From positions 434,001 through 498,000 of the forward strand of contig NZ_JAANYY010000002.1 of NCBI RefSeq assembly GCF_012274265.1: a DNA stretch of 64,000 nt, given 5' to 3'. Under the pieces are notes generated by a model. It was not told where the DNA came from. It worked only from the letters and a program-made list of their open reading frames with translations, and made no database searches. This DNA comes from Sphingopyxis microcysteis (GTDB lineage Bacteria > Pseudomonadota > Alphaproteobacteria > Sphingomonadales > Sphingomonadaceae). The position numbers and the translations under genes are program-made. Positions 3,726-33,865 of this stretch are shown piece by piece. Every line of letters begins with the position of its first letter. Positions within the stretch are counted from its first letter, which is position 1.

Positions 3726-3741
3726 CAACTCACCACCTCGT

Positions 3742-22832: not shown

Positions 22833-23001
22833 GGCCGTGCCAATGATGCAAAATGTCGCGCTTGGCAAGGGGGGAGTGGGAAAATTGCGTGATAGCGCCG
22901 TGCCGCGTACCCACCCCGCTGCGACTAGCGCACCTGCGGTGCGGCAAGTCTCGCTCCCCTCCCGCAGGCGGGAGGGGTTGGGGGTGGGCCTGACTTCCGC
23001 G

Positions 23002-23487
23002 CTACCCTTTGACCCACTCCACCTTGGGATCATTGAAATCGACGACATCGGCGAGCTCGTACACATTGGGATAGCCATAGCCGACGAGGTTGATGAAGGT
23101 CTGGATATTGAGCGCGAGCGCGGCCGCCTTGACCGGCACCGGGGCGACATTGTTGCGGAAATTATTGTTGCAATAGATGAGGATGGGGCGGTCGGGGTTG
23201 GCGCCGATCACCGCGGCGAGGCTGTCCGCGGTGAAATCGGTCAGCGGCAGGTTGACCGCGCCCTTGATATGCCCGCGCCGGAAAGCGTCGCTGGAGCGCG
23301 CGTCGAGGAGCAGGGTGCCGGGCTTCGCGGCTTCGGCCTTGAACGCGTCGAAGGCGAGCAGGCGACTGGCCCGCGCGGGCGCGACGCCGGCGGTGAGCGT
23401 CTGAAAGGCGGGATAATCGATTTGCGGATTGGCTTGCGCAAGCGCGGGGGTGGCGGCGAATACGGCGGCGAGCAGCAGGATACGCAT
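23002..23487 (-). CDS. periplasmic rhodanese-like protein
   Basis: The 161 residues begin with a cleavable signal peptide (MRILLLAAVFAATPALAQA) and form one rhodanese domain: LLLDARSSDAFRRGHIKGAV, then the active-site loop ILIYCNNNFRNN with the persulfide-carrying cysteine near residue 107. The final segment is YGYPNVYELADVVDF. Single-domain periplasmic rhodaneses transfer sulfane sulfur or act on thiols; the acceptor here is unknown. It is transcribed toward leuA, with the leucine leader about 170 bp downstream. Confidence 0.9.
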   Translation of the reverse strand: MRILLLAAVFAATPALAQANPQIDYPAFQTLTAGVAPARASRLLAFDAFKAEAAKPGTLLLDARSSDAFRRGHIKGAVNLPLTDFTADSLAAVIGANPDRPILIYCNNNFRNNVAPVPVKAAALALNIQTFINLVGYGYPNVYELADVVDFNDPKVEWVKG

Positions 23488-23546
23488 GATGGTCCTCCCT
23501 TGGTTGCGGGGAGGTTAGGCAGCGCGCGATGGATGGGGCATGAATG

Positions 23547-23687
23547 ATCCTCCCTGTGCCGAAGGCATGGGGAGGTGGCAGCGCGACGCGCTGACGGAGG
23601 GGCTTTGACACTACCGTTGCGGCCCCTCCACCATCCCCGCTTTCGCGGGGACGGTCCCCCTCCCCACGGCTTCGCCGCAGGGAGGAT
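23547..23687. repeat. long palindromic repeat, kind R4 (with an extra inner stem)
   Basis: It has the usual R4 ends (ATCCTCCCTGTGCCGAAGGC and complement) but contains an additional CCCCGCTTTCGCGGGG stem beside CCACC. It fills the gap between the rhodanese and YceI genes. Confidence 0.85.
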
Positions 23688-23697
23688 TGGGACCGCG

Positions 23698-24345
23698 TTA
23701 CTGCTTTTCGAACGCGGCGTGGATTTCGAGTTCGACTTCGTCGCTGACCGCGGGGATGCCGTAGGTGATGCCGAAATCGCTGCGGCGGATCGTGGTTTCG
23801 GCGTTGAAGCCGACGGTGGCCTTCTTGTTGTACGGATTGGTCCCGGCGCCGTGGAAATCGACGTCGAGGGTGACCGGCTTGGTGACGCCGTTGAGGGTCA
23901 GATTGCCGGTGACCTTCGCTTCGTCGCCGTCGTCGTCCAAGACGACGCGGGTCGACACGAATTTGGCGTCGGCGGGGGCGGGGCCGAAGAAGTCGGGCTT
24001 GCCGCCGTCCTTGCCCGCGCGGAGCAGATGGCCGGTGAGGCCGCTGCTGGCGGTTGTGACCTTGGCCACGGGGATCGTCACATCGACCCTGGACGCGCCG
24101 GGATTGGCGGGGTCGATGACGAGCGTGCCGGTGACGTCGCCGAAGATGCCGCTATAGTCGCTGAAACCGAAATGATCGACTTCCCAGACCACCATCGTGT
24201 GGCCCGCGTCGGCGGCATAGGTGCCCGCGGCGACGCGCGACTTGTCGGGGGCGCCCGGCATTCCGGGGCTTTGGGCGACGACGACGGGAACCGCGACGAC
24301 GGCGGCGGCGAGAGCGGCGAGCGGGATGATGCGGCGCATGAACAT
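23698..24345 (-). CDS. YceI-family periplasmic lipid-binding-like protein
   Basis: From ATG 24345, preceded by CAGGAG, the protein has 215 residues with a signal peptide (MRRIIPLAALAAAVVAVPVV). YceI features follow: GHTMVVWEVDHFGFSDYSGIFG, KVTGNLTLNGVTKPVTLDVD and TIRRSDFGITYGIPAVSDEV near the end. The fold is an eight-stranded lipocalin-like barrel that binds isoprenoids in studied members. The frame continues upstream of 24345, but nothing there looks coding. The stop is next to an R4 repeat. Confidence 0.93.
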   Translation of the reverse strand: MFMRRIIPLAALAAAVVAVPVVVAQSPGMPGAPDKSRVAAGTYAADAGHTMVVWEVDHFGFSDYSGIFGDVTGTLVIDPANPGASRVDVTIPVAKVTTASSGLTGHLLRAGKDGGKPDFFGPAPADAKFVSTRVVLDDDGDEAKVTGNLTLNGVTKPVTLDVDFHGAGTNPYNKKATVGFNAETTIRRSDFGITYGIPAVSDEVELEIHAAFEKQ

Positions 24346-24440
24346 GAACTCCTGTTGGGGGTGCGCGCAAGCTAGGCCGCGCGCGGCGTGGCGGTCAATC
24401 ACGAGGCTGGAAACGCTGCGTTTCGCGATCGGGTTCCCGC

Positions 24441-24845
24441 TCAGCGGGCGCGGCGCGCCTCGAACCATTGGCGCAGCGCCAGCGCGGCGCAGCCGGTGTA
24501 GCCATAGCTGCCAACCGGCGAGCAGCTGTCGGGGCGCGTCTGGCGGGCGATATTGTCATAGCCCTCGACCTTCGACGCCCAGCTGCCGCCGCCGACCGGC
24601 GCATCGTCCTTCAGTTCCTCGCGCAGTTCCTTGGGCACCCGATAGCGTTCGGATTCGGGCTGCTGCGCGCAGACGACGATTTCATTGCCCTCGGGCTCGG
24701 GACAGGGCTCGTCGCCATAGGTGTAGAGCACCGAGGTGCGCTGCGGCGGCTGCGCCGATTGGGCGAGGCTGTCGTCCTGCGCCGCGGCGGGCATGGTGAG
24801 GGTGAGCGCGGCGAGAAGGGGGAGGAGAAGGCCGGTCTTGTTCAT
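24441..24845 (-). CDS. secreted protein of unknown function
   Basis: A 134-residue protein with a clear signal peptide (MNKTGLLLPLLAALTLTMPAAAQ). The mature part contains YGDEPCPEPEGNEIVVCAQQ, then PESERYRVPKELREEL, and near the end a cysteine-bearing CSPVGSYGYTGCAALALRQW. Four cysteines could form two disulfides. I know no function; similar short PCPEPEGNEIVVC proteins appear typical of sphingomonads (from memory, not checked). It stands alone, 95 bp upstream of the YceI gene on the same strand. Confidence 0.8.
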   Translation of the reverse strand: MNKTGLLLPLLAALTLTMPAAAQDDSLAQSAQPPQRTSVLYTYGDEPCPEPEGNEIVVCAQQPESERYRVPKELREELKDDAPVGGGSWASKVEGYDNIARQTRPDSCSPVGSYGYTGCAALALRQWFEARRAR

Positions 24846-25018
24846 CGTTATTGATCGCCTTCCCGGTCGCCGTCGCGGACCCGCTGTCGCTGCCGTTTAG
24901 CATGAAGCGTGCAGATGAACCTAAGCCGAACCTGTCCGCGTAACCCTTTGCGCCCTGGCCGCGAATTGGGAGCGAAGGGCGGCGGCATCGGGCCGTTCGA
25001 CCCGGATGGAGATCGATC

Positions 25019-25504
25019 GTGAAACACCAAGCCCTGTTCTTCCTGCTCGCGGCGGCGACGGCGCCGTTGTCGCTCGCGGCCTTTACCCCGCAGGCCTATG
25101 CCGCCCCGGTCTATGTCGGGGTCGAAGGCGGCAATGTCGCGGTCAGCGGCTATGACGCGGTGAGCTATTTCGACGGCGACGGGGTGCCGGTGAAGGGCGA
25201 CGCCGATTTCGCGGTCGCGCATGACGGCGCGGTCTATCATTTCGCCAATGCCGCCAACGCTGCGCGCTTTGCCGCCAATCCCGAGGCGTTCCTGCCGCGT
25301 TATGGCGGGCATTGCGCGTGGGCGATGGCGCGCGGCTATCTCGCGCCCGGCGATCCGCGGGCTTATGCGGTGGTCGATGGGAAGCTGTACCTGAACTTCA
25401 ATCAGGCGGTGAAGGCGACATGGGACAAGGACCGCGCGGGGCATATTGCGGCGGCGGAGAAGAATTGGGCGGTGGTGCCGGCGGATGCGAAGTTTGGGGG
25501 GTGA
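25019..25504 (+). CDS. secreted YHS-domain protein
   Basis: The 161-residue protein starts at GTG 25019. It has a signal peptide running to about residue 28 (ending AYAAP), then a YHS-type domain: VAVSGYDAVSYFDGDGVPVK, YHFANAANAARFAANPEAFL, YGGHCAWAMARGY. Proteins of this class are proposed metal- or copper-handling periplasmic factors, based on the conserved Cys/His, but function here is open. Two tiny coupled reading frames follow it. Confidence 0.9.
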   Translation: MKHQALFFLLAAATAPLSLAAFTPQAYAAPVYVGVEGGNVAVSGYDAVSYFDGDGVPVKGDADFAVAHDGAVYHFANAANAARFAANPEAFLPRYGGHCAWAMARGYLAPGDPRAYAVVDGKLYLNFNQAVKATWDKDRAGHIAAAEKNWAVVPADAKFGG

Positions 25505-25510
25505 GGTCGA

Positions 25511-25537
25511 TGTCTGCTAAGGGGTAGGAAGCGGACG
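25511..25537. repeat. short palindrome, kind R8
   Basis: The arms GTCTGCT and AGCGGAC flank AAGGGGTAGGA. It lies 7 bases after the YHS stop codon. Read as codons it would give a spurious start and an in-frame TAG ahead of the small frame at 25573. Confidence 0.7.
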
Positions 25538-25572
25538 TTGCGCTGATCGCCCAGCTCGGCCATAACGACGCC

Positions 25573-25659
25573 ATGCGTGACTATCGAGATAGGTTCCGCG
25601 ACGAGCGGCTAGGGAAGCTGGTGAAGCATAAGCCCGCGCCGAAAAAGCCGAAAGCGTGA
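25573..25659 (+). CDS. tiny basic peptide (28 residues), doubtful
   Basis: This frame encodes MRDYRDRFRDERLGKLVKH followed by KPAPKKPKA. It is highly basic and stops at TGA overlapping the ATG of the next small gene (TGATG). The same frame stays open back to the TAG inside the R8 palindrome, so a longer product would need a non-ATG start. No ribosome binding site is clear. It may be the 3' end of a decayed gene or a real coupled peptide. Confidence 0.3.
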   Translation: MRDYRDRFRDERLGKLVKHKPAPKKPKA

Positions 25660-25832
25660 TGCCCCGCGACAAATGGCTCTTTGGCGTCGCGATGTTTTGG
25701 TTCGCCTATTCCGGCTATCGTTTCAGTGATGGCCGTGAGTTCTCGGAAAATTGGAGCGTGATGTTCCCGCTCTTCACCGGCATCGTTTTTTTATTTCTTG
25801 CCTATCGCCGCCCGCGTCGCGCGACGAAATAG
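25659..25832 (+). CDS. small membrane protein (57 residues)
   Basis: Its start overlaps the preceding tiny frame by one base. The sequence opens MPRDKWLFGVAMFWFAYSGY, then a short acidic loop (SDGREFSENW), then a second hydrophobic stretch (MFPLFTGIVFLFLAY) and a basic tail RRPRRATK, giving a two-helix hairpin with positive ends. Codon use is less G+C-biased than that of its neighbours. No family is recognised. The regular topology makes it more likely real than the frame before it. Confidence 0.5.
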   Translation: MPRDKWLFGVAMFWFAYSGYRFSDGREFSENWSVMFPLFTGIVFLFLAYRRPRRATK

Positions 25833-25976
25833 GACGCACTAGAGCTTTCCTACTAAATCCCGGCCTGTCATGTTCGCCGCCAACATCCTGCCCCCATATC
25901 GTCATACCGGAGTTCTCTTCCGCCGGTAGCGAAGTTGAAGGGCGGGAATGGGGTGGGGAGCGGACCTTGCCTTATT

Positions 25977-26054
25977 CGTCATCCCGGCGAAGGCCGGGAT
26001 CTCACCCTATCGGTTTTCCGCACCGGCGAGATCCCGGCCTTCGCCGGGATGACG
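25977..26054. repeat. palindromic repeat, kind R1
   Basis: CGTCATCCCGGCGAAGGCCG and its reverse complement enclose TCACCCTATCGGTTTTCCGC. An R4 copy follows after 9 bp, forming a composite block. Confidence 0.88.
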
Positions 26055-26063
26055 ATGTTATAG

Positions 26064-26198
26064 ATCCTCCCTGTGGCGAAGCCATGGAGAGGGGACCGTT
26101 CGCGAAGCGAATGGTGGAGGGGCGGCGACGGTAGTGCCATGGCCCCTCCGTCAGCGCTCCGCGCTGCCACCTCCCCATCGCTGCGCGACAGGGAGGAT
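26064..26198. repeat. long palindromic repeat, kind R4
   Basis: Full R4 copy with ATCCTCCCTGTGGCGAAGCC at one end and the GGGAGGAT complement at the other. It lies downstream of bioA. Confidence 0.88.
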
Positions 26199-26230
26199 CG
26201 ATGGCAACTTCCGGTCGCTAGCTGCCATCT

Positions 26231-27487
26231 CTAAATCACCTCCAGCGACGCCCTGATCGCATCCCACACCTGCGCCAGTTCCTCCGCCGTGATGCAATAG
26301 GGCGGCATCACATACAGCGTGTTGCCGAGTGGGCGGAGGAGGATGCCGTGGTCGCGGTAGAAGGCGATCAGGCGCGGGGCGAGGTTGGACAGATAGCCGC
26401 CGTCGGGGACGACGATGTCGAGCGCTGCGATGGTGCCGAGGCGGCGGGGACCCGCGATGCGCGGGTCGTGGCCGAGGAGCGAGAGATGCGCGGCCTGTGC
26501 GTCGGCGAGCGCGTCGATGCGTCCCTGCACCGGTTCGTCGCGCCAGATTTCGAGATTGGCGACTGCGGCGGCGCAGGCGATCGGGTTCGCGGTGTAGCTC
26601 GACGAATGATAGAAGGTTTTGGCGCGGTCGGTCGAATAGTGCGCCGCGAAGATCGGCTCGATGCAGAGCGTGACCGCGAGCGGCAGGCTGCCGCCGGTGA
26701 GGCCTTTGGAGAGGCACATGATGTCGGGGATCACCCCCGCATGGTCGCAGGCGAAGCGGGTGCCGGTGCGCCCCCAGCCGGTCATCACCTCGTCGGCGAT
26801 GAAGAGGACGCCGTGGCGCGCGCAGATGCTGCGCATTTCGGCGAGCACCCATGGCGGATAAATGAGCATGCCGCCCGCGCCGAGGATCAGCGGTTCGACG
26901 ATGAAGGCCGCGGGTTTGGCTGCGCACGCCGCTTCGAGCGCGTCGAGCGTGGCTTGCTCAAGCCCCTCGTGCGGGAAGGGGATGGTGTCGACGTCGAACA
27001 GCAAGGGCTGCCAGGCGCGGTTGTACACGCCGCGCTCGCCGACCGACATCGTGCCGATCGTGTCGCCATGATAGCTGTGTTCGAGGACGAGGATGCGGCT
27101 GCGCGGTTCGCCGATGTTGTACCAGTAGCCGAGCGCCATTTTGAGCGCGACCTCGACGCTGGTCGAGCCCGAGTCCGAAAAGAAGACGCGGGTGAGCGGA
27201 TCGGGCGTGATGCGGACCAGTTCGGCGGCAAGGCTTTCGGCGGGTTCGTGGGTCCAGCCCGCGAAGATGAGCTGGTCGAGCTTTTCGGACTGGGCGCGGA
27301 TCGCGGCCATGATGAGCGGGTGCGCGTGACCGTGGGTGGTGACCCACCAGCTGGAGATGGCGTCGATCCAGTGGTTGCCGTCGGCGTCGTAAAGCCGCGC
27401 ACCGTCGCCCCGGGCGATCAGCGGGATGGCGTCGCCGAGGCCGTGCTGGGTGAAGGGGTGCCAGATGGGGGAATGGTTGGTGGTCAT
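26231..27487 (-). CDS. bioA: adenosylmethionine-8-amino-7-oxononanoate aminotransferase
   Basis: BioA converts KAPA to DAPA with S-adenosylmethionine as amino donor in biotin synthesis. This fold-type I PLP enzyme has about 418 residues from ATG 27487. HPFTQHG and GNHWIDAISSWWVTTHGHAH mark the BioA branch of the class III aminotransferases. SYHGDTIGTMSVG, FIADEVMTGWGRTG (the PLP-binding Asp) and IMCLSKGLTGGSLPL (the PLP lysine) follow. A start nine codons further upstream falls toward an R1 repeat and is less likely. It follows bioD, with the repeat between them. Confidence 0.95.
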   Translation of the reverse strand: MTTNHSPIWHPFTQHGLGDAIPLIARGDGARLYDADGNHWIDAISSWWVTTHGHAHPLIMAAIRAQSEKLDQLIFAGWTHEPAESLAAELVRITPDPLTRVFFSDSGSTSVEVALKMALGYWYNIGEPRSRILVLEHSYHGDTIGTMSVGERGVYNRAWQPLLFDVDTIPFPHEGLEQATLDALEAACAAKPAAFIVEPLILGAGGMLIYPPWVLAEMRSICARHGVLFIADEVMTGWGRTGTRFACDHAGVIPDIMCLSKGLTGGSLPLAVTLCIEPIFAAHYSTDRAKTFYHSSSYTANPIACAAAVANLEIWRDEPVQGRIDALADAQAAHLSLLGHDPRIAGPRRLGTIAALDIVVPDGGYLSNLAPRLIAFYRDHGILLRPLGNTLYVMPPYCITAEELAQVWDAIRASLEVI

Positions 27488-27508
27488 GGCCTGAGCCTTA
27501 CTCAATTC

Positions 27509-27586
27509 CGTCATCCCGGCGAAGGCCGGGATCTCACCCTGTCGGGAAAACGCACCGGCGAGATCCCGGCCTTCGCCGGGATGACG
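27509..27586. repeat. palindromic repeat, kind R1
   Basis: Occupies almost the whole gap between the bioD stop and the bioA start, with ends CGTCATCCCGGCGAAGGCCG and complement. Confidence 0.88.
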
Positions 27587-27591
27587 ATTGT

Positions 27592-28320
27592 CTATTCGAA
27601 GTCCGTGAGATCGAAGCTCGCGTTAAACGCCGCCGCCAGATTTTCCGGCGTCAGCGGATCGACGAGCGGCAGGCGGCCCAGGCGGCGGACGCCCGAAATT
27701 TCGGAAATGATCGCCTCGCTGTCCTCCACAGCGTCGCCGAGGAAGGTGAGGCCGTGGATGGGGACGCCGCGCGCGCGCAGTGCCTCGATCGTCAGCAGGC
27801 TGTGATTGATCGTGCCGAGCGCGGTGCGCGCGCAGACGATGACGGGGATTTGCCAGCGCGCGAAGATGTCGGCGTAGAGGGTCGTGCGCGTCACCGGGAC
27901 GAGCGCGCCGCCCGCGCCCTCGACGATCAGGTCGCCGGGGGGCGGGGTGAGCCGGTCGAGGTCGATCGTGACGCCGTCGATCTCGGCGGCGATGTGCGGC
28001 GAAGCGGGGGTGACGAGGCGATAGGCTTCGGGTCGAATGTATCCTCCCTGTTGCGCAGCAATGGGGAGGTGGCAGCCCGAAGGGCTGACGGAGGGGCCAT
28101 GGCGCGAGGTTGCCGCCCCTCCACCATCCGCTTCGCGGACGGTCCCCCTCCCCACGCTTCGCGCAGGGAGGAGTTTAGCGACGATCTGGCTGTCGGTTTC
28201 TTCGTCCAGCCCTGCCTGGATCGGCTTCCAATATGGCGCGCCGGTGGCCCCCGCGAGCGCGGCGGCAAAGACCGTCTTGCCGATGCCCGTATCGGTGCCG
28301 GTGACGACGAAGCGCGTCAT
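27592..28320 (-). CDS. bioD: dethiobiotin synthetase carrying an in-frame repeat insertion
   Basis: BioD closes the ureido ring of dethiobiotin using ATP and CO2. Visible features are the P-loop [54 protein letters not shown] and [15 protein letters not shown]. The protein is 242 residues, about 30-40 longer than usual. Residues 50-94 ([19 protein letters not shown] through AAQQGGY) are translated from an R4 repeat placed between the DSQIVAK helix and the conserved PEAYRL segment. The frame stays open, so the protein should be made with an extra loop or tail-like hairpin. The start overlaps the bioF stop. Confidence 0.93.
28041..28173. repeat. long palindromic repeat, kind R4, inside bioD
   Basis: It has the standard R4 ends (ATCCTCCCTGTTGCGCAGCA and GGGAGGAG). 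Both halves are intact and recognisable, and the element is read through in one frame of bioD without a stop codon. Confidence 0.92.
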
Positions 28321-29453
28321 GCCGCGGCCATCGCCGCCGCCAGCGCGTCGGCCATGGCATCGACGTCGGCTTCGTCGACATTCAGCGTGATCGCGATGCG
28401 CAGCCGCGCGGTGCCGTGGGGAACGGTCGGCGGGCGGATGCCGCGGATGTCGAAACCCGCCTCGTGCAGCGCCCCCGCAATGCGCATCGTGCGCTGGTTG
28501 TCGCCGATGACGACGGGCAGGATTTGCGTGCCGCTGGCCGGGACGCCGAGCGGGACGAGACGTTCGGCAGCATGGCGAACGACGGCGTGCAGGCGCGCCT
28601 GCCGTTCGGGCTCGGTCGCGACGATCTCGATCGCCTGCCGCACCAGCCACGCCATGAGCGGCGAGGGGGCGGTCGAGAAGATGAAGGGGCGGCCGCGGTT
28701 GACGAGGAAGTCGCAGGCGATGGCGGCGGCGCAGAGCAGCGCCCCTTCGGCCCCCAGCGCCTTGCCGCAGGTGTGAAGGGTGATCAGATTGTCGCGGCGC
28801 GCCAAACCATGTGCGAGCCCGGCGCCGCCGGGACCGAAGACGCCGGTGGCGTGGGCTTCGTCGACGACGAGGATCGCGTCGTGGCGGTCGGCGACGGCGG
28901 CGAGCGCGGCGAGCGGGGCGCGGTCGCCGTCCATCGAATAGAGGCTTTCGACCGCGATCCACGGCGTCCCCGCACCGCCGCCGGCGCGCCAGCGGGTGAT
29001 GATATCGTCGAACGCCTGTGCATCATTATGCGCGGCGGCGACGGTCCCGGCCCGGCCGAGCTTCATCCCGTCGTGCGCGCTGGCGTGGATCAACTCGTCG
29101 TGGACGACAAGGTCGCCGCGCTGCGGCAGCGCCGCGAACAGCGCGGCATTGGCGGCGAAGCCGGTGGGGAAGAACAGCGCCGCCTCGCTGCCATAATGGC
29201 GCGCGGCGTGCGCCTCGAGCGCTTCATGTTCGGGATGGTTGCCGCGCAGCAGGCGCGAGCCGCCCGAGCCGGTGGGAAGCCCGCGTTCGATCCCGGCGGC
29301 GAGCGCATGGCGCATCGCGTCGCTGTCGGCGAGCCCGAGATAATCGTTCGAGGCGAAGTCGCGGCCGGTGCGCGGCGCGAGGGCGCGGCGGCGGTTGTCG
29401 TGCGCGAGCGCCGCGAGGTCGGCGTGATGGGCGGCGAAGGGAGAGGGCGCCAT
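28317..29453 (-). CDS. bioF: 8-amino-7-oxononanoate synthase
   Basis: BioF joins pimeloyl-ACP or pimeloyl-CoA to alanine to make KAPA. The 378-residue alpha-oxoamine synthase shows [47 protein letters not shown] (the PLP-interacting Asp/His) and [15 protein letters not shown] with the PLP lysine. Its stop overlaps the bioD start by four bases, so the two are translationally coupled. The upstream gene on the same strand encodes a DUF6151 protein. Confidence 0.95.
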
Positions 29454-29519
29454 GGTTTTCCTTCTCTGGTCACGCCCGCGATGGCGGGGATCCCGCTTTC
29501 GCCGCGACGACGAAATTTC

Positions 29520-30134
29520 CTAGTCTGTGCGGCCACTGCCGCGCAGCGCCTGCCGTTCTTCGGCGGTCAGGCGGCGGGGCGTGGCGATCGGCTCGAGGGT
29601 CTTGGGGTCGAAAAGCGGGCAGCGGCGGCGGTCGCCCGAGACGAGGTCGCGGAGCATGCGCGGGAAGAAGCGGCGCATCAGCTGGCCCATGCTCATTTTG
29701 GGGAGCGCGCTGGTGTCGCCGATGCCGTCGTCGGTGAAGAGATGGCCGCGCGGCGGGCCGACCAGCGAGTCCCGCGTTGCGGGATCGCAGGCGGCGAGCT
29801 GGGTGGTGATATAGGGCAGCTTGCCGTTCGCATAGGTGTTGAACAGCGGCATGCCGCAGCAGGCGGCGTACCAGCGCAGCGTCGGCTTGTCGGTGAGATG
29901 GACGCAGGCCAGCTGATCGCGGCCGGTGTCGAGCCGCACGCGCGCGCAGCGCGACTGGTAGAGCGCGCTGCCGCCATGCGCATCGAGCACATGCTCGGCA
30001 TGGCCAAGGTGGCGCGTCAGATCCTGGCAGTCGGTGCAATGGCAGATGACATGGTCACCCTGATCCGGGCCGACGTCGAGCAGGGCGCCGGAGACGGCGC
30101 CGCATCGGCAGGCTAAGGGGAGGGGGGATGGCAT
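29520..30134 (-). CDS. DUF6151/GFA-like zinc-binding protein
   Basis: The 204-residue protein has the cysteine pattern of the Mss4-like/GFA fold: LACRCGAVSG near the N-terminus, CHCTDCQDL near residue 32, and ACCGMPLFNTYANGKLPY near residue 92. Together these could hold one or two zinc ions. The C-terminal part (KMSMGQLMRRFFPRMLRDL) is basic and helical. Function is unknown. GGAGG precedes the start. It lies just upstream of bioF on the same strand, 66 bp apart, so it may lead the biotin cluster, but nothing ties it to biotin chemistry. Confidence 0.75.
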   Translation of the reverse strand: MPSPLPLACRCGAVSGALLDVGPDQGDHVICHCTDCQDLTRHLGHAEHVLDAHGGSALYQSRCARVRLDTGRDQLACVHLTDKPTLRWYAACCGMPLFNTYANGKLPYITTQLAACDPATRDSLVGPPRGHLFTDDGIGDTSALPKMSMGQLMRRFFPRMLRDLVSGDRRRCPLFDPKTLEPIATPRRLTAEERQALRGSGRTD

Positions 30135-30170
30135 GGTTGCCTCCTAGCGCCGGATGACATGCAATGGAAA

Positions 30171-30252
30171 CGTCATTGCGAGCGAAGCGAAGCAATCCAG
30201 AGCGGCTTGTCACACTCTGGATTGCTTCGTTGCTACGCTCCTCGCAATGACG
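30171..30252. repeat. palindromic repeat, kind R5
   Basis: CGTCATTGCGAGCGAAGCGA with AGCAATCCAGAG on one arm, and the complement ending in CTCGCAATGACG on the other. A single copy in this window, between ilvC and the DUF6151 gene. The motif resembles a repeat widespread in Alphaproteobacteria. Confidence 0.85.
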
Positions 30253-30271
30253 GGATCAGAGGGTGGTCCGA

Positions 30272-31415
<1,144 letters not shown>

Positions 31416-31431
31416 AAGTTAGTGGTAAACT

Positions 31432-31947
31432 CTAGAGCGCCTCCGACCCGCGGGCGATGGCAACGACGCCGGTGCGGCCGACCTCGACCAGCCCGCATTC
31501 GCGCATGAGCGCGATGAAGCGGTCGACCTTGTCGCTCGTCCCGGTGATTTCGAAGATGAAGCTGGTGAGCGTCGTGTCGACGACCTTGGCGCGGAAGACG
31601 TCGGCCATGCGCAGCGCCTCGATGCGCTTGTCGCCGGTCCCCGCGACCTTCACGAGCGCGATCTCGCGTTCGACATGCGCGCCGCCGTCGGCAAGGTCGG
31701 TGACCGAGTGGACGGGAACGAGCCGGTCGAGCTGCGCGATGATCTGGTCGATCACCGCGGGCGGGCCGCTGGTGACGATGGTGATCCGCGACAGCGCATG
31801 ATCGGCGCTGATGTCGGCGACGGTCAGGCTTTCGATATTATAGCCGCGCGCCGAGAACAGCCCGGTGATCTTGGCCAGGATGCCGGCTTCGTTGTCGACG
31901 GTGACGGCGAGGACGTGACGCTCGCCCGCTTCGGTTTTGATTTTCAT
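31432..31947 (-). CDS. ilvN: acetolactate synthase small (regulatory) subunit
   Basis: The 171-residue regulatory subunit binds valine and stimulates the large subunit. An ACT domain at residues 10-85 shows VTVDNEAGILAKITGLFSARGYNIESL. The second, ferredoxin-like half contains GDKRIEALRMADVFRAKVVD and ends near RTGVVAIARGSEAL. The ATG at 31947 is preceded by GGGGAGGAATA, and that Shine-Dalgarno sequence is the outer end of an R4 repeat filling the gap to ilvB. The family is often labelled ilvH; ilvN is used here only as a generic symbol. Confidence 0.95.
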   Translation of the reverse strand: MKIKTEAGERHVLAVTVDNEAGILAKITGLFSARGYNIESLTVADISADHALSRITIVTSGPPAVIDQIIAQLDRLVPVHSVTDLADGGAHVEREIALVKVAGTGDKRIEALRMADVFRAKVVDTTLTSFIFEITGTSDKVDRFIALMRECGLVEVGRTGVVAIARGSEAL

Positions 31948-31948
31948 T

Positions 31949-32090
31949 ATTCCTCCCCACTCGTGGGGAGGGGGACCACCGCGAAGCGGTGATGGAGGGG
32001 GCTCTCGGCCATACCCTTCGCCGCCGTGCAGGGACGCACCCCCCCTCCGTCAGCGCTTCGCGCTGCCACCTCCCCGCAAGCGGGGAGGAT
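31949..32090. repeat. long palindromic repeat, kind R4, next to ilvN start
   Basis: It fills the ilvB-ilvN gap. Its terminal GGGGAGGA (read on the minus strand) lies at the correct distance to serve as the ribosome binding site of ilvN. Confidence 0.88.
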
Positions 32091-32110
32091 TTTGTTCCTG
32101 CTATCCATCA

Positions 32111-33865
32111 TCACACCAGCGCTTTCGCTTCGTCGTCCATCGTGCCGGTGATGTCGTTCGGCTGGAGGATCATGTCGGTGTGCGCGGCGCCGCTCGGGAT
32201 CATCGGGAAGCAGTTGGCGAGCTGCGCGACGCGGCAGTCGACGATCACTGGTCCGGGGGTGTCGATCATCCGCTGGATGCCGTCCGCGAGTTCGCCCAGA
32301 TTGTCGATGCGGATGCCGGTCCAGCCATAGGCGTCGGCGAGCTTCACGAAATCGGGCAGGCTGTCCGAATAGCTGTTCGAATAGCGGCTTTCATAGGTGA
32401 GTTCCTGCCACTGGCGGACCATCCCCATCCACTGGTTGTTGAGGATGAAGATCTTCACCGGCAGGCGGTACTGGCTGACCGTGCCCATTTCCTGGATATT
32501 CATCTGGAGCGAGGCTTCGCCCGCGACGCAGATGACGAGGCGATCGGGGTGCGCGATCTGCGCGCCGACCGCCGCCGGGAAGCCATAGCCCATCGTGCCG
32601 AGCCCGCCGCTGGTCAGCCAGCGATTGGGGCTGTCGAAATGGAAATGCTGCGCCGCCCACATCTGGTGCTGGCCGACCTCGGTGGTGATGATCGGATCGC
32701 GGCCGCGGGTCGCGTCGAACAGCGCCTTGACCGCGCGCTGCGGCATGATTTCGGCGCCATCCTCTTTCTTTTCGGGAAAGTCGAGGCAGCGCGTCGCGCG
32801 CCAGCCGTCGATGCGGCGCCACCATTCGCCGAGGTCGCGCGCCTTATAACCCTTGTCGCCCCACGCCGCGATCAGCGCGTCGAGCGCGCGCCCGGCATCG
32901 CCGACGATCGCGAGGTCGACGGGGACGATCTTGTTGATCGAACTGCGGTCGATGTCGATGTGGATCTTCTTCGATTCCGGCGAGAAGGCGTCGAGGCGCC
33001 CAGTGACGCGGTCGTCGAAGCGCGCGCCGACCGCGATGATCAGGTCGGCGCGGTTCATCGCCATGTTCGATTCGTAGGTGCCGTGCATGCCGAGCATGCC
33101 GAGCCACTTGTCATCGTCCGCCGGGAAGGCGCCGAGGCCCATCAGCGTCGAGGTGACCGGCGCGCCGGTGAGCGCGACCAACTGGCGCAGCGCCGCGCTG
33201 GCATCGGGGCCGGCGTTGATCACCCCGCCGCCGGTGTAGAAGATCGGGCGCTCGGCGGCGGCGATCATCGCGGCGGCCTGGGTGATCGCGTCGGCGTCGG
33301 GATCGACCTGGGGGCGATAGCTTTTATGGTCGATCCGGTTGGGGATCGAATAGGTGCCGGTCGCGACCTGGACGTTTTTCGGAATGTCGATGACCACCGG
33401 GCCGGGGCGGCCATGGGTCGCGATATAAAAGGCCTCGTGCAGGATGGGGCCGAGGCGGTCGGGGTCCATGACGAGATAATTATGCTTGGTGCAGTGGCGC
33501 GTGATGCCGACGGTGTCGCATTCCTGGAACGCGTCGGTGCCGATCAGCGTCGTCGGCACCTGCCCGGTGAGCACGACCATCGGGATCGAGTCGAGCAGCG
33601 CGTCGGTGATGCCGGTGACGGCATTGGTCGCGCCGGGGCCCGAGGTGACGAGCACGACGCCGGGCTTGCCGGTCGAGCGCGCATAGCCCTCTGCCGCGTG
33701 GGTCGCGGCCTGTTCGTGGCGGACGAGGATGTGCTTGATCGTCGGGTGCTTGAAAAGCGCGTCGTAAATCGGAAGCACCGCGCCGCCCGGATAGCCGAAC
33801 ACCGTATCGACCCCAAGGTCGACCAGCGCCTGAACCACCATGTCGGCACCGCTCATTTCCGTCAC
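32111..33865 (-). CDS. ilvB: acetolactate synthase large (catalytic) subunit
   Basis: This ThDP/FAD enzyme makes acetolactate or acetohydroxybutyrate. It has 584 residues from GTG 33865 with AAGGAG upstream. The ThDP-activating glutamate lies in VRHEQAATHAAEGYAR. The diphosphate/Mg site reads VAGEASLQMNIQEM, then IFILNNQWMGMVRQW. The Gly-Glu-Ala-Ser loop replaces the more usual Gly-Asp-Gly-Ser, which I believe is common in alphaproteobacterial homologues. It is the first gene of an ilvB-ilvN-ilvC series, and its promoter lies at the end of miaA. Confidence 0.96.
   Translation of the reverse strand: MTEMSGADMVVQALVDLGVDTVFGYPGGAVLPIYDALFKHPTIKHILVRHEQAATHAAEGYARSTGKPGVVLVTSGPGATNAVTGITDALLDSIPMVVLTGQVPTTLIGTDAFQECDTVGITRHCTKHNYLVMDPDRLGPILHEAFYIATHGRPGPVVIDIPKNVQVATGTYSIPNRIDHKSYRPQVDPDADAITQAAAMIAAAERPIFYTGGGVINAGPDASAALRQLVALTGAPVTSTLMGLGAFPADDDKWLGMLGMHGTYESNMAMNRADLIIAVGARFDDRVTGRLDAFSPESKKIHIDIDRSSINKIVPVDLAIVGDAGRALDALIAAWGDKGYKARDLGEWWRRIDGWRATRCLDFPEKKEDGAEIMPQRAVKALFDATRGRDPIITTEVGQHQMWAAQHFHFDSPNRWLTSGGLGTMGYGFPAAVGAQIAHPDRLVICVAGEASLQMNIQEMGTVSQYRLPVKIFILNNQWMGMVRQWQELTYESRYSNSYSDSLPDFVKLADAYGWTGIRIDNLGELADGIQRMIDTPGPVIVDCRVAQLANCFPMIPSGAAHTDMILQPNDITGTMDDEAKALV

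Follow-up and report, generated by a model that had tools for sequence, protein, structure and literature searches.

The bioD locus and its palindromic insert

The stretch of Sphingopyxis microcysteis DNA analysed here (64,000 nucleotides, referred to as the window) carries on its minus strand, in this order, the genes bioF (28317..29453), bioD (27595..28320, stop codon 27592-27594) and bioA (26231..27514), with the start of bioD lying within the last codons of bioF in a 4-nt overlap. The product of bioA exceeds the cut-off of TIGR00508 (512.1 bits against 405), while that of bioF has TIGR00858 as its best NCBIfam model, at 330.5 bits and under the cut-off of 426.45. The 242-residue bioD product was assigned as a dethiobiotin synthetase from its open reading frame, from the results of Foldseek searches and from the equivalog model TIGR00347, which it matches in two separate stretches with 102.7 bits (cut-off 83.3). 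The spacer between bioD and bioA is occupied by a D2-type palindromic repeat with CGTC ends (27503..27592), a family with six copies in the window, at 3737, 25971, 27503, 31332, 43680 and 48857. Further upstream, a match resembling an SAH riboswitch (30138-30249, minus strand; 26.8 of the 37 bits of the gathering score, E 0.1) sits just upstream of a minus-strand open reading frame at 29520-30134.

At 242 residues, the window BioD is longer than its insert-free Sphingopyxis counterparts, which comprise about 201-202 residues. The gene contains a 132-nt palindromic repeat of the R4 family (28041..28172, minus strand), extending from TCCTCCCTG to CAGGGAGGAT, and alignment with 29 further copies from the same genome, the ends of which are ATCCTCCC and GGGAGGAT, shows that the element begins and ends within bioD. 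The reading frame runs uninterrupted across it. Comparison with insert-free relatives, together with the per-residue confidence of the structural model, assigns codons 51-94 (28039..28170, minus strand) to the element: these 44 codons (LPARS...QQGGY) replace the four codons, typically AGVP, that insert-free genes contain between the ARL and PEAYRL segments, for a net gain of 40 amino acids. An earlier note on this DNA had described an intact R4 element read in frame within bioD, which holds, as does its location; the extent given there (28041-28173, 133 bp, about 45 residues from 50 to 94) is corrected by the present boundaries. The very stable internal hairpin that the same note had anticipated is borne out by the computed folding energy of the element with its flanks (-97.3 kcal/mol, z -7.7), a stability equalled by none of 200 shuffled sequences.

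Five R4 copies lie in the window (family D1, at 23546, 28040, 39204, 43804 and 58791), and the genome-wide search returned 69 matches, counting both strands, from the 40 scored of 110 candidate places. R4 is therefore present in at least 40 places of this genome, the 39 other strong ones displaying 82-90% identity to the bioD copy. Searching window positions 23000-33000 against Rfam gave no match to the R4 element; the eight matches obtained all fall under the gathering score, seven of them being microRNA models placed on D2 repeats. Some R4 copies (L083, L085, L087, L094 and L099) have partly common extended flanks, such as ACGATGYTATAG and CGATGGCAGCTA, and give the impression of composite units formed by fusion with an adjacent repeat.

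The structure of the window BioD was predicted with AlphaFold2 from 41 sequences, with a mean pLDDT of 85.0 and values of at least 90 for 173 of the 242 residues, falling below 50 over residues 55-92. The first 20 matches of this model in a Foldseek search of the PDB are all dethiobiotin synthetases, with TM scores of 0.64-0.74 on the query. The fold is thus predicted with confidence around a segment predicted to be disordered, and the R4-derived residues probably constitute a floppy loop. As had been proposed, the catalytic motifs are preserved, the invariant residues of the alignment all lying outside the insert. The model and the sequence together suggest that the enzyme is probably still made with its insert.

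The coding character of individual R4 copies was assessed by codon composition in 104 occurrences. They come from 100 loci retrieved from seven genomes, namely every one of the 40 places scored in the window genome plus ten loci in each of the six others, and represent a subset of the existing copies in which some loci overlap. By the margin between GC3 and GC2, four bioD copies rank first to fourth (0.22-0.36), followed by a next best value of 0.14, with 0.09 for the last ten loci. A filter using 120 flanking codons passed nothing, missing bioD itself since the upstream bioF occupies a different frame, and the 45 codons adopted instead were chosen after this had been seen. Judged in this way, none of the 104 occurrences other than the bioD copies looks translated, in agreement with the view that R4 otherwise lies outside genes. 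Peptides derived from the repeat also match open frames in the genomes G016, G019, G071 and others of the genus; these matches are probably mostly spurious.

Distribution in Sphingopyxis and in other genera

Among 80 Sphingopyxis genomes searched, 76 gave some match and 71 a match to the bioD core (listed rows sorted by hand). A full R4 element at the same codon of bioD was found in seven of the 80: those of the window (G000), G037 (locus L001), G041 (L002), G002 (L003, S. bauzanensis), G010 (L004, S. jiangsuensis), G048 (L078) and G035 (L114). An eighth, G052 (L022), contains a remnant in which both R4 ends are partly kept around a large in-frame deletion. In 63 of the 71 genomes bioD is insert-free, the two halves of the match being at most 12 nt apart. 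The segment of the Sphingopyxis carriers is clearly similar to R4 at the nucleotide level, a lack of such similarity having been named beforehand as evidence against a repeat origin. In all seven, the junction codons are the same, and so are the host codons that are missing. Misassembly is possible at repeats, but the occurrence of R4 at one codon, with differing sequences, in seven separate genomes refutes an assembly or sequencing artefact, which can practically be dismissed.

TIGR00347 identified a single matching gene in each of the eight carrier or remnant genomes, and this profile revealed no second bioD in any of them, the presence of a second intact copy being another outcome that had been put forward as contrary to the claim. 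Seven of the eight genes score above the cut-off, the exception being that of G048, a metagenome-assembled genome (MAG) of 77% completeness; the bioD frame is open in the other six carriers and shifted after the insert in this one (L078, 2004-2725), which may be a sequencing error. The gene bioB was found in all eight genomes. The other AAA_26 match of the window genome lies within a 493-residue open reading frame, which we take to be a cobyric acid synthase.

The same loop is also occupied outside Sphingopyxis. In Sphingobium boeckii, BioD contains 34 residues (net gain 30) in the same codon interval, encoded by a palindrome of the CGTC type that begins with CGTC, forms a hairpin of -36.8 kcal/mol and gives 58 genome matches on both strands from the 40 scored of 79 candidate places. 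With its CGTC end, palindromic sequence and many genomic copies, this insert belongs with the CGTC-tagged REPs, and the D2 repeat of the bioD-bioA spacer resembles it in general type, as judged by eye and without a score. In the model of S. boeckii BioD, residues 51-80 have a mean pLDDT of 48-54 and most of the core exceeds 90, so that the predicted loop resembles that of the window protein. Two other genomes of this genus have either no insert or only six extra residues (L265, G199:C1:286100-286800). A survey of the family detected a bioD match (E<=1e-20) in 84 of 199 genomes, with an insert-type break only in G000, G037 and G116, the last of which is taken to be the S. boeckii genome, the inserted residues being identical; in G244, bioD is split over two contigs. 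In four listed family genomes whose matches are somewhat longer, the loop is extended by only 3-6 residues; on comparison of these sequences, its length also varies naturally by a few residues, without repeats, in other genera.

Internal variation and history of the insert

The R4 copies differ in the lengths of hairpin 1, hairpin 2 and the loop, the commonest intergenic arrangement being 12/16/21 nt (27 of 84 copies). Within bioD, the window gene, L002 and L114 display 10/16/20, L003 10 and 20 for hairpin 1 and the loop (hairpin 2 was not measured), L001 and L078 12/14/20, and L004 12/16/15; the 12/14/20 subtype also occurs in two intergenic copies. As a consequence, species differ in the frame used for the central part of the insert, which reads ARSVGRGT..., VAKPWGGG... 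or, in L004, a third arrangement after hairpin 2, while the ends of the insert and the remainder of BioD stay in phase in spite of the differing internal frames. Among the intergenic copies, 78 of 84 could be measured, 43 of which have an in-phase length; 28 of these 43 are also free of stops in the bioD frame. In S. bauzanensis the insert measures 207 nt and includes additional segments of 24 and 45 nt. At other places of that genome, one R4 contains both extensions (80% identity over 200 nt) and three the larger one, in one case partly (L256, G002:C11:1025273-1025473; L257, L258 and L259); the L003 insert therefore represents either a new insertion or the outcome of overwriting by a subtype resident in that genome.

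Over the last 18 codons of the insert, the synonymous share of differences is 0.353, compared with 0.071 in 62 intergenic copies read in the same frame, and none of 3000 random sets of six reached as high a value. The comparison rests on six related bioD sequences with few changes, and omits L003 and 22 of the 84 intergenic copies because of their length; it hints at a constraint on these codons at the protein level.

The carriers are scattered both on the rpoB tree, which covers the 22 of 27 genomes in which rpoB was found and lacks the carrier L078 and four non-carriers, and on the bioF+bioA tree, built without L011 and L020. On these two trees insert-free sisters accompany L003 (L005, support 100 and 100) and L002 (L013, support 98 and 100). 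The bioD core, in contrast, unites six carriers with the remnant in one clade (UFBoot 99) and leaves L003 outside it, near L005 and L024 with weak support (57); the clade was not recovered from the C-terminal part of bioD alone. The bioD comparisons leave out L011, L019, L020 and L042, the tree also L026-L029, and the 253 pairs for which divergence ratios were calculated additionally L009 and L025-L030. Among pairs with at least one carrier, the three closest have a divergence of bioD relative to that of bioF and bioA of 2.78, 2.32 and 1.96, compared with a maximum of 1.50 in 105 non-carrier pairs; the groups as wholes do not differ, with median ratios of 1.06 in carrier (n=28), 1.21 in mixed (n=120) and 1.16 in non-carrier pairs (n=105).

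These close pairs are locally mosaic. The window genome and L001 are 96-97% identical in bioF and bioA, and their identity falls to 77-84% over bioD nucleotides 61-300, insert included, against 92-100% nearly everywhere else, with further dips to 90% at bioD nucleotides 541-720 and to 77% in the last interval compared. In the pairs L003/L005 and L002/L013 the stretches of low identity cover the bioD region and extend into the bioD-bioA spacer. The scattered carriers and the three mosaic pairs imply that alleles have recombined or that the site has been hit more than once. From these sequence comparisons we infer that recombination carried insert-bearing tracts between species.

Origin of the insert and its relation to known repeats

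The reading that we consider very probable is that R4 entered a tolerant loop of bioD, came to be read as an unstructured segment of 44 residues and spread by recombination, its subtypes being exchanged or re-inserted. A mobile or formerly mobile palindromic repeat would have entered between the helix that follows the conserved Asp43, a probable metal ligand by analogy with E. coli BioD, and the strand preceding the SPH motif, replacing about four codons and leaving the frame open. Since the repeat is poor in stop codons, it could be translated through, and the enzyme would fold around the resulting unstructured loop. Homologous recombination of short bioD tracts would then have carried the insert-bearing allele from one Sphingopyxis species to another, and the insert already present would have been exchanged for, or re-inserted as, other R4 subtypes, with selection acting mainly on a total length in phase and on the absence of stops, and with the DNA of the insert keeping its palindrome as the intergenic copies do. 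The long subtype of L003, found elsewhere in its genome, fits a second insertion equally well.

Independent hits of R4 on the same site, in place of a single entry followed by spread, appear unlikely, although several observations point in that direction: the dispersal of the carriers on the rpoB and bioF+bioA trees, the variety of subtypes, of which 12/14/20 (in two copies) and the long one also lie between genes, the failure of L003 to join the other carriers on the bioD core tree, and the occupation of this codon in Sphingobium by another repeat. Moreover, the L078 and L004 inserts have as their closest copy compared an intergenic one and not one from bioD, a comparison biased by the fetching of intergenic copies through their similarity to the window copy. 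The junction codons and missing host codons common to all seven carriers speak against independent hits, as do the grouping of six carriers with the remnant and the local divergence of bioD in the closest carrier pairs. A bolder and equally tentative proposal is that palindromes of different families settle in the BioD loop time and again, and that copies from elsewhere in the genome keep overwriting the resident one, so that nothing but the palindrome and the overall phase is retained.

The insert might also be kept for a useful mRNA hairpin or DNA palindrome in the bioF-bioD-bioA transcript, for example one that adjusts the expression of bioA or the decay of the mRNA. Six bioD copies, L003 being omitted from the count, are almost fully paired (98.0% of 298 cells), six pairs have changes on both sides, the covariation score was reached in none of 500 shuffles, and certain pair-preserving substitutions change the amino acid sequence. 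The number of pair types, however, is unremarkable (equalled or exceeded in 167 of 500 shuffles), and the 84 intergenic copies are just as palindromic, with a median folding energy of -0.694 kcal/mol per nucleotide against -0.676 in the six bioD copies, so that the pairing in bioD need not reflect selection at the RNA level, descent or exchange being sufficient. Since, in addition, most genomes of the genus have an insert-free bioD and L022 has lost most of its insert, such a role is improbable. Still less credible is a bioD broken by the insertion in a decaying operon: the large disordered insert near a conserved helix and the frameshifted copy of the L078 MAG would suit it, but the frame is open in six of the seven carriers, the equivalog cut-off is passed in seven of the eight genomes, the conserved residues are kept, and a single bioD is accompanied by bioB, bioF and bioA.

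R4 in bioD is an in-frame palindrome within a conserved gene, and as such it resembles the palindromic elements of Rickettsia and Wolbachia. Rickettsia palindromic elements (RPEs) are described as palindromic multi-copy repeats of 100-150 bp residing in preexisting open reading frames with the frame intact, and the biotin ligase genes of Wolbachia and Rickettsia as containing palindromic elements in the same region in the two genera (PMC3767692, PMC10969869); palindromes read in frame are thus well documented in Rickettsia (PMC10969869, PMC3767692, PMC5656822). R4 is likened to RPEs by layout and not by sequence. Unlike them, it belongs to a genus outside the Rickettsiales, occurs in one gene, among the copies fetched, instead of in dozens, and keeps its total phase while the internal frames differ. 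GTAG- and CGTC-tagged REPs lie within coding regions of many species, S. alaskensis among them, and in two Xanthomonas species nearly the same position of recB is occupied by different REPs, according to the main text of PMC3733652, which does not mention biotin or bioD ('biotin' is absent and 'biod' occurs once, in a reference title on biodegradation). The S. boeckii insert, which begins with CGTC, is akin to these intragenic REPs, whereas the R4 ends bear neither tag. With MITEs, R4 shares its short length, terminal inverted repeats and many copies, both of the latter confirmed here, but not a target-site duplication: none of the 29 window-genome copies with exact ends has three or more matching flanking bases, and two-base matches are as frequent as expected by chance (4 against 3.8).

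A literature search of open-licence papers found no report of such a bioD insert in Sphingopyxis. The phenomenon is a known one, seen here in a new repeat family, untagged and lacking a target-site duplication, with a series of states preserved in relatives. These states of a repeat turned protein include the full insert, its subtypes, internal frameshifts that cancel each other, a long version and a nearly complete in-frame deletion. If the loop does prove to be such a repeatedly used site of landing and exchange, a metabolic enzyme would possess a cassette that keeps being rewritten, both in its sequence and in its internal reading frame. As bioD can be selected for on biotin-free medium, it offers a convenient system for finding out whether repeat-derived protein segments and strong intragenic hairpins bring a cost, a benefit or neither, which has been asked mainly for Rickettsia.
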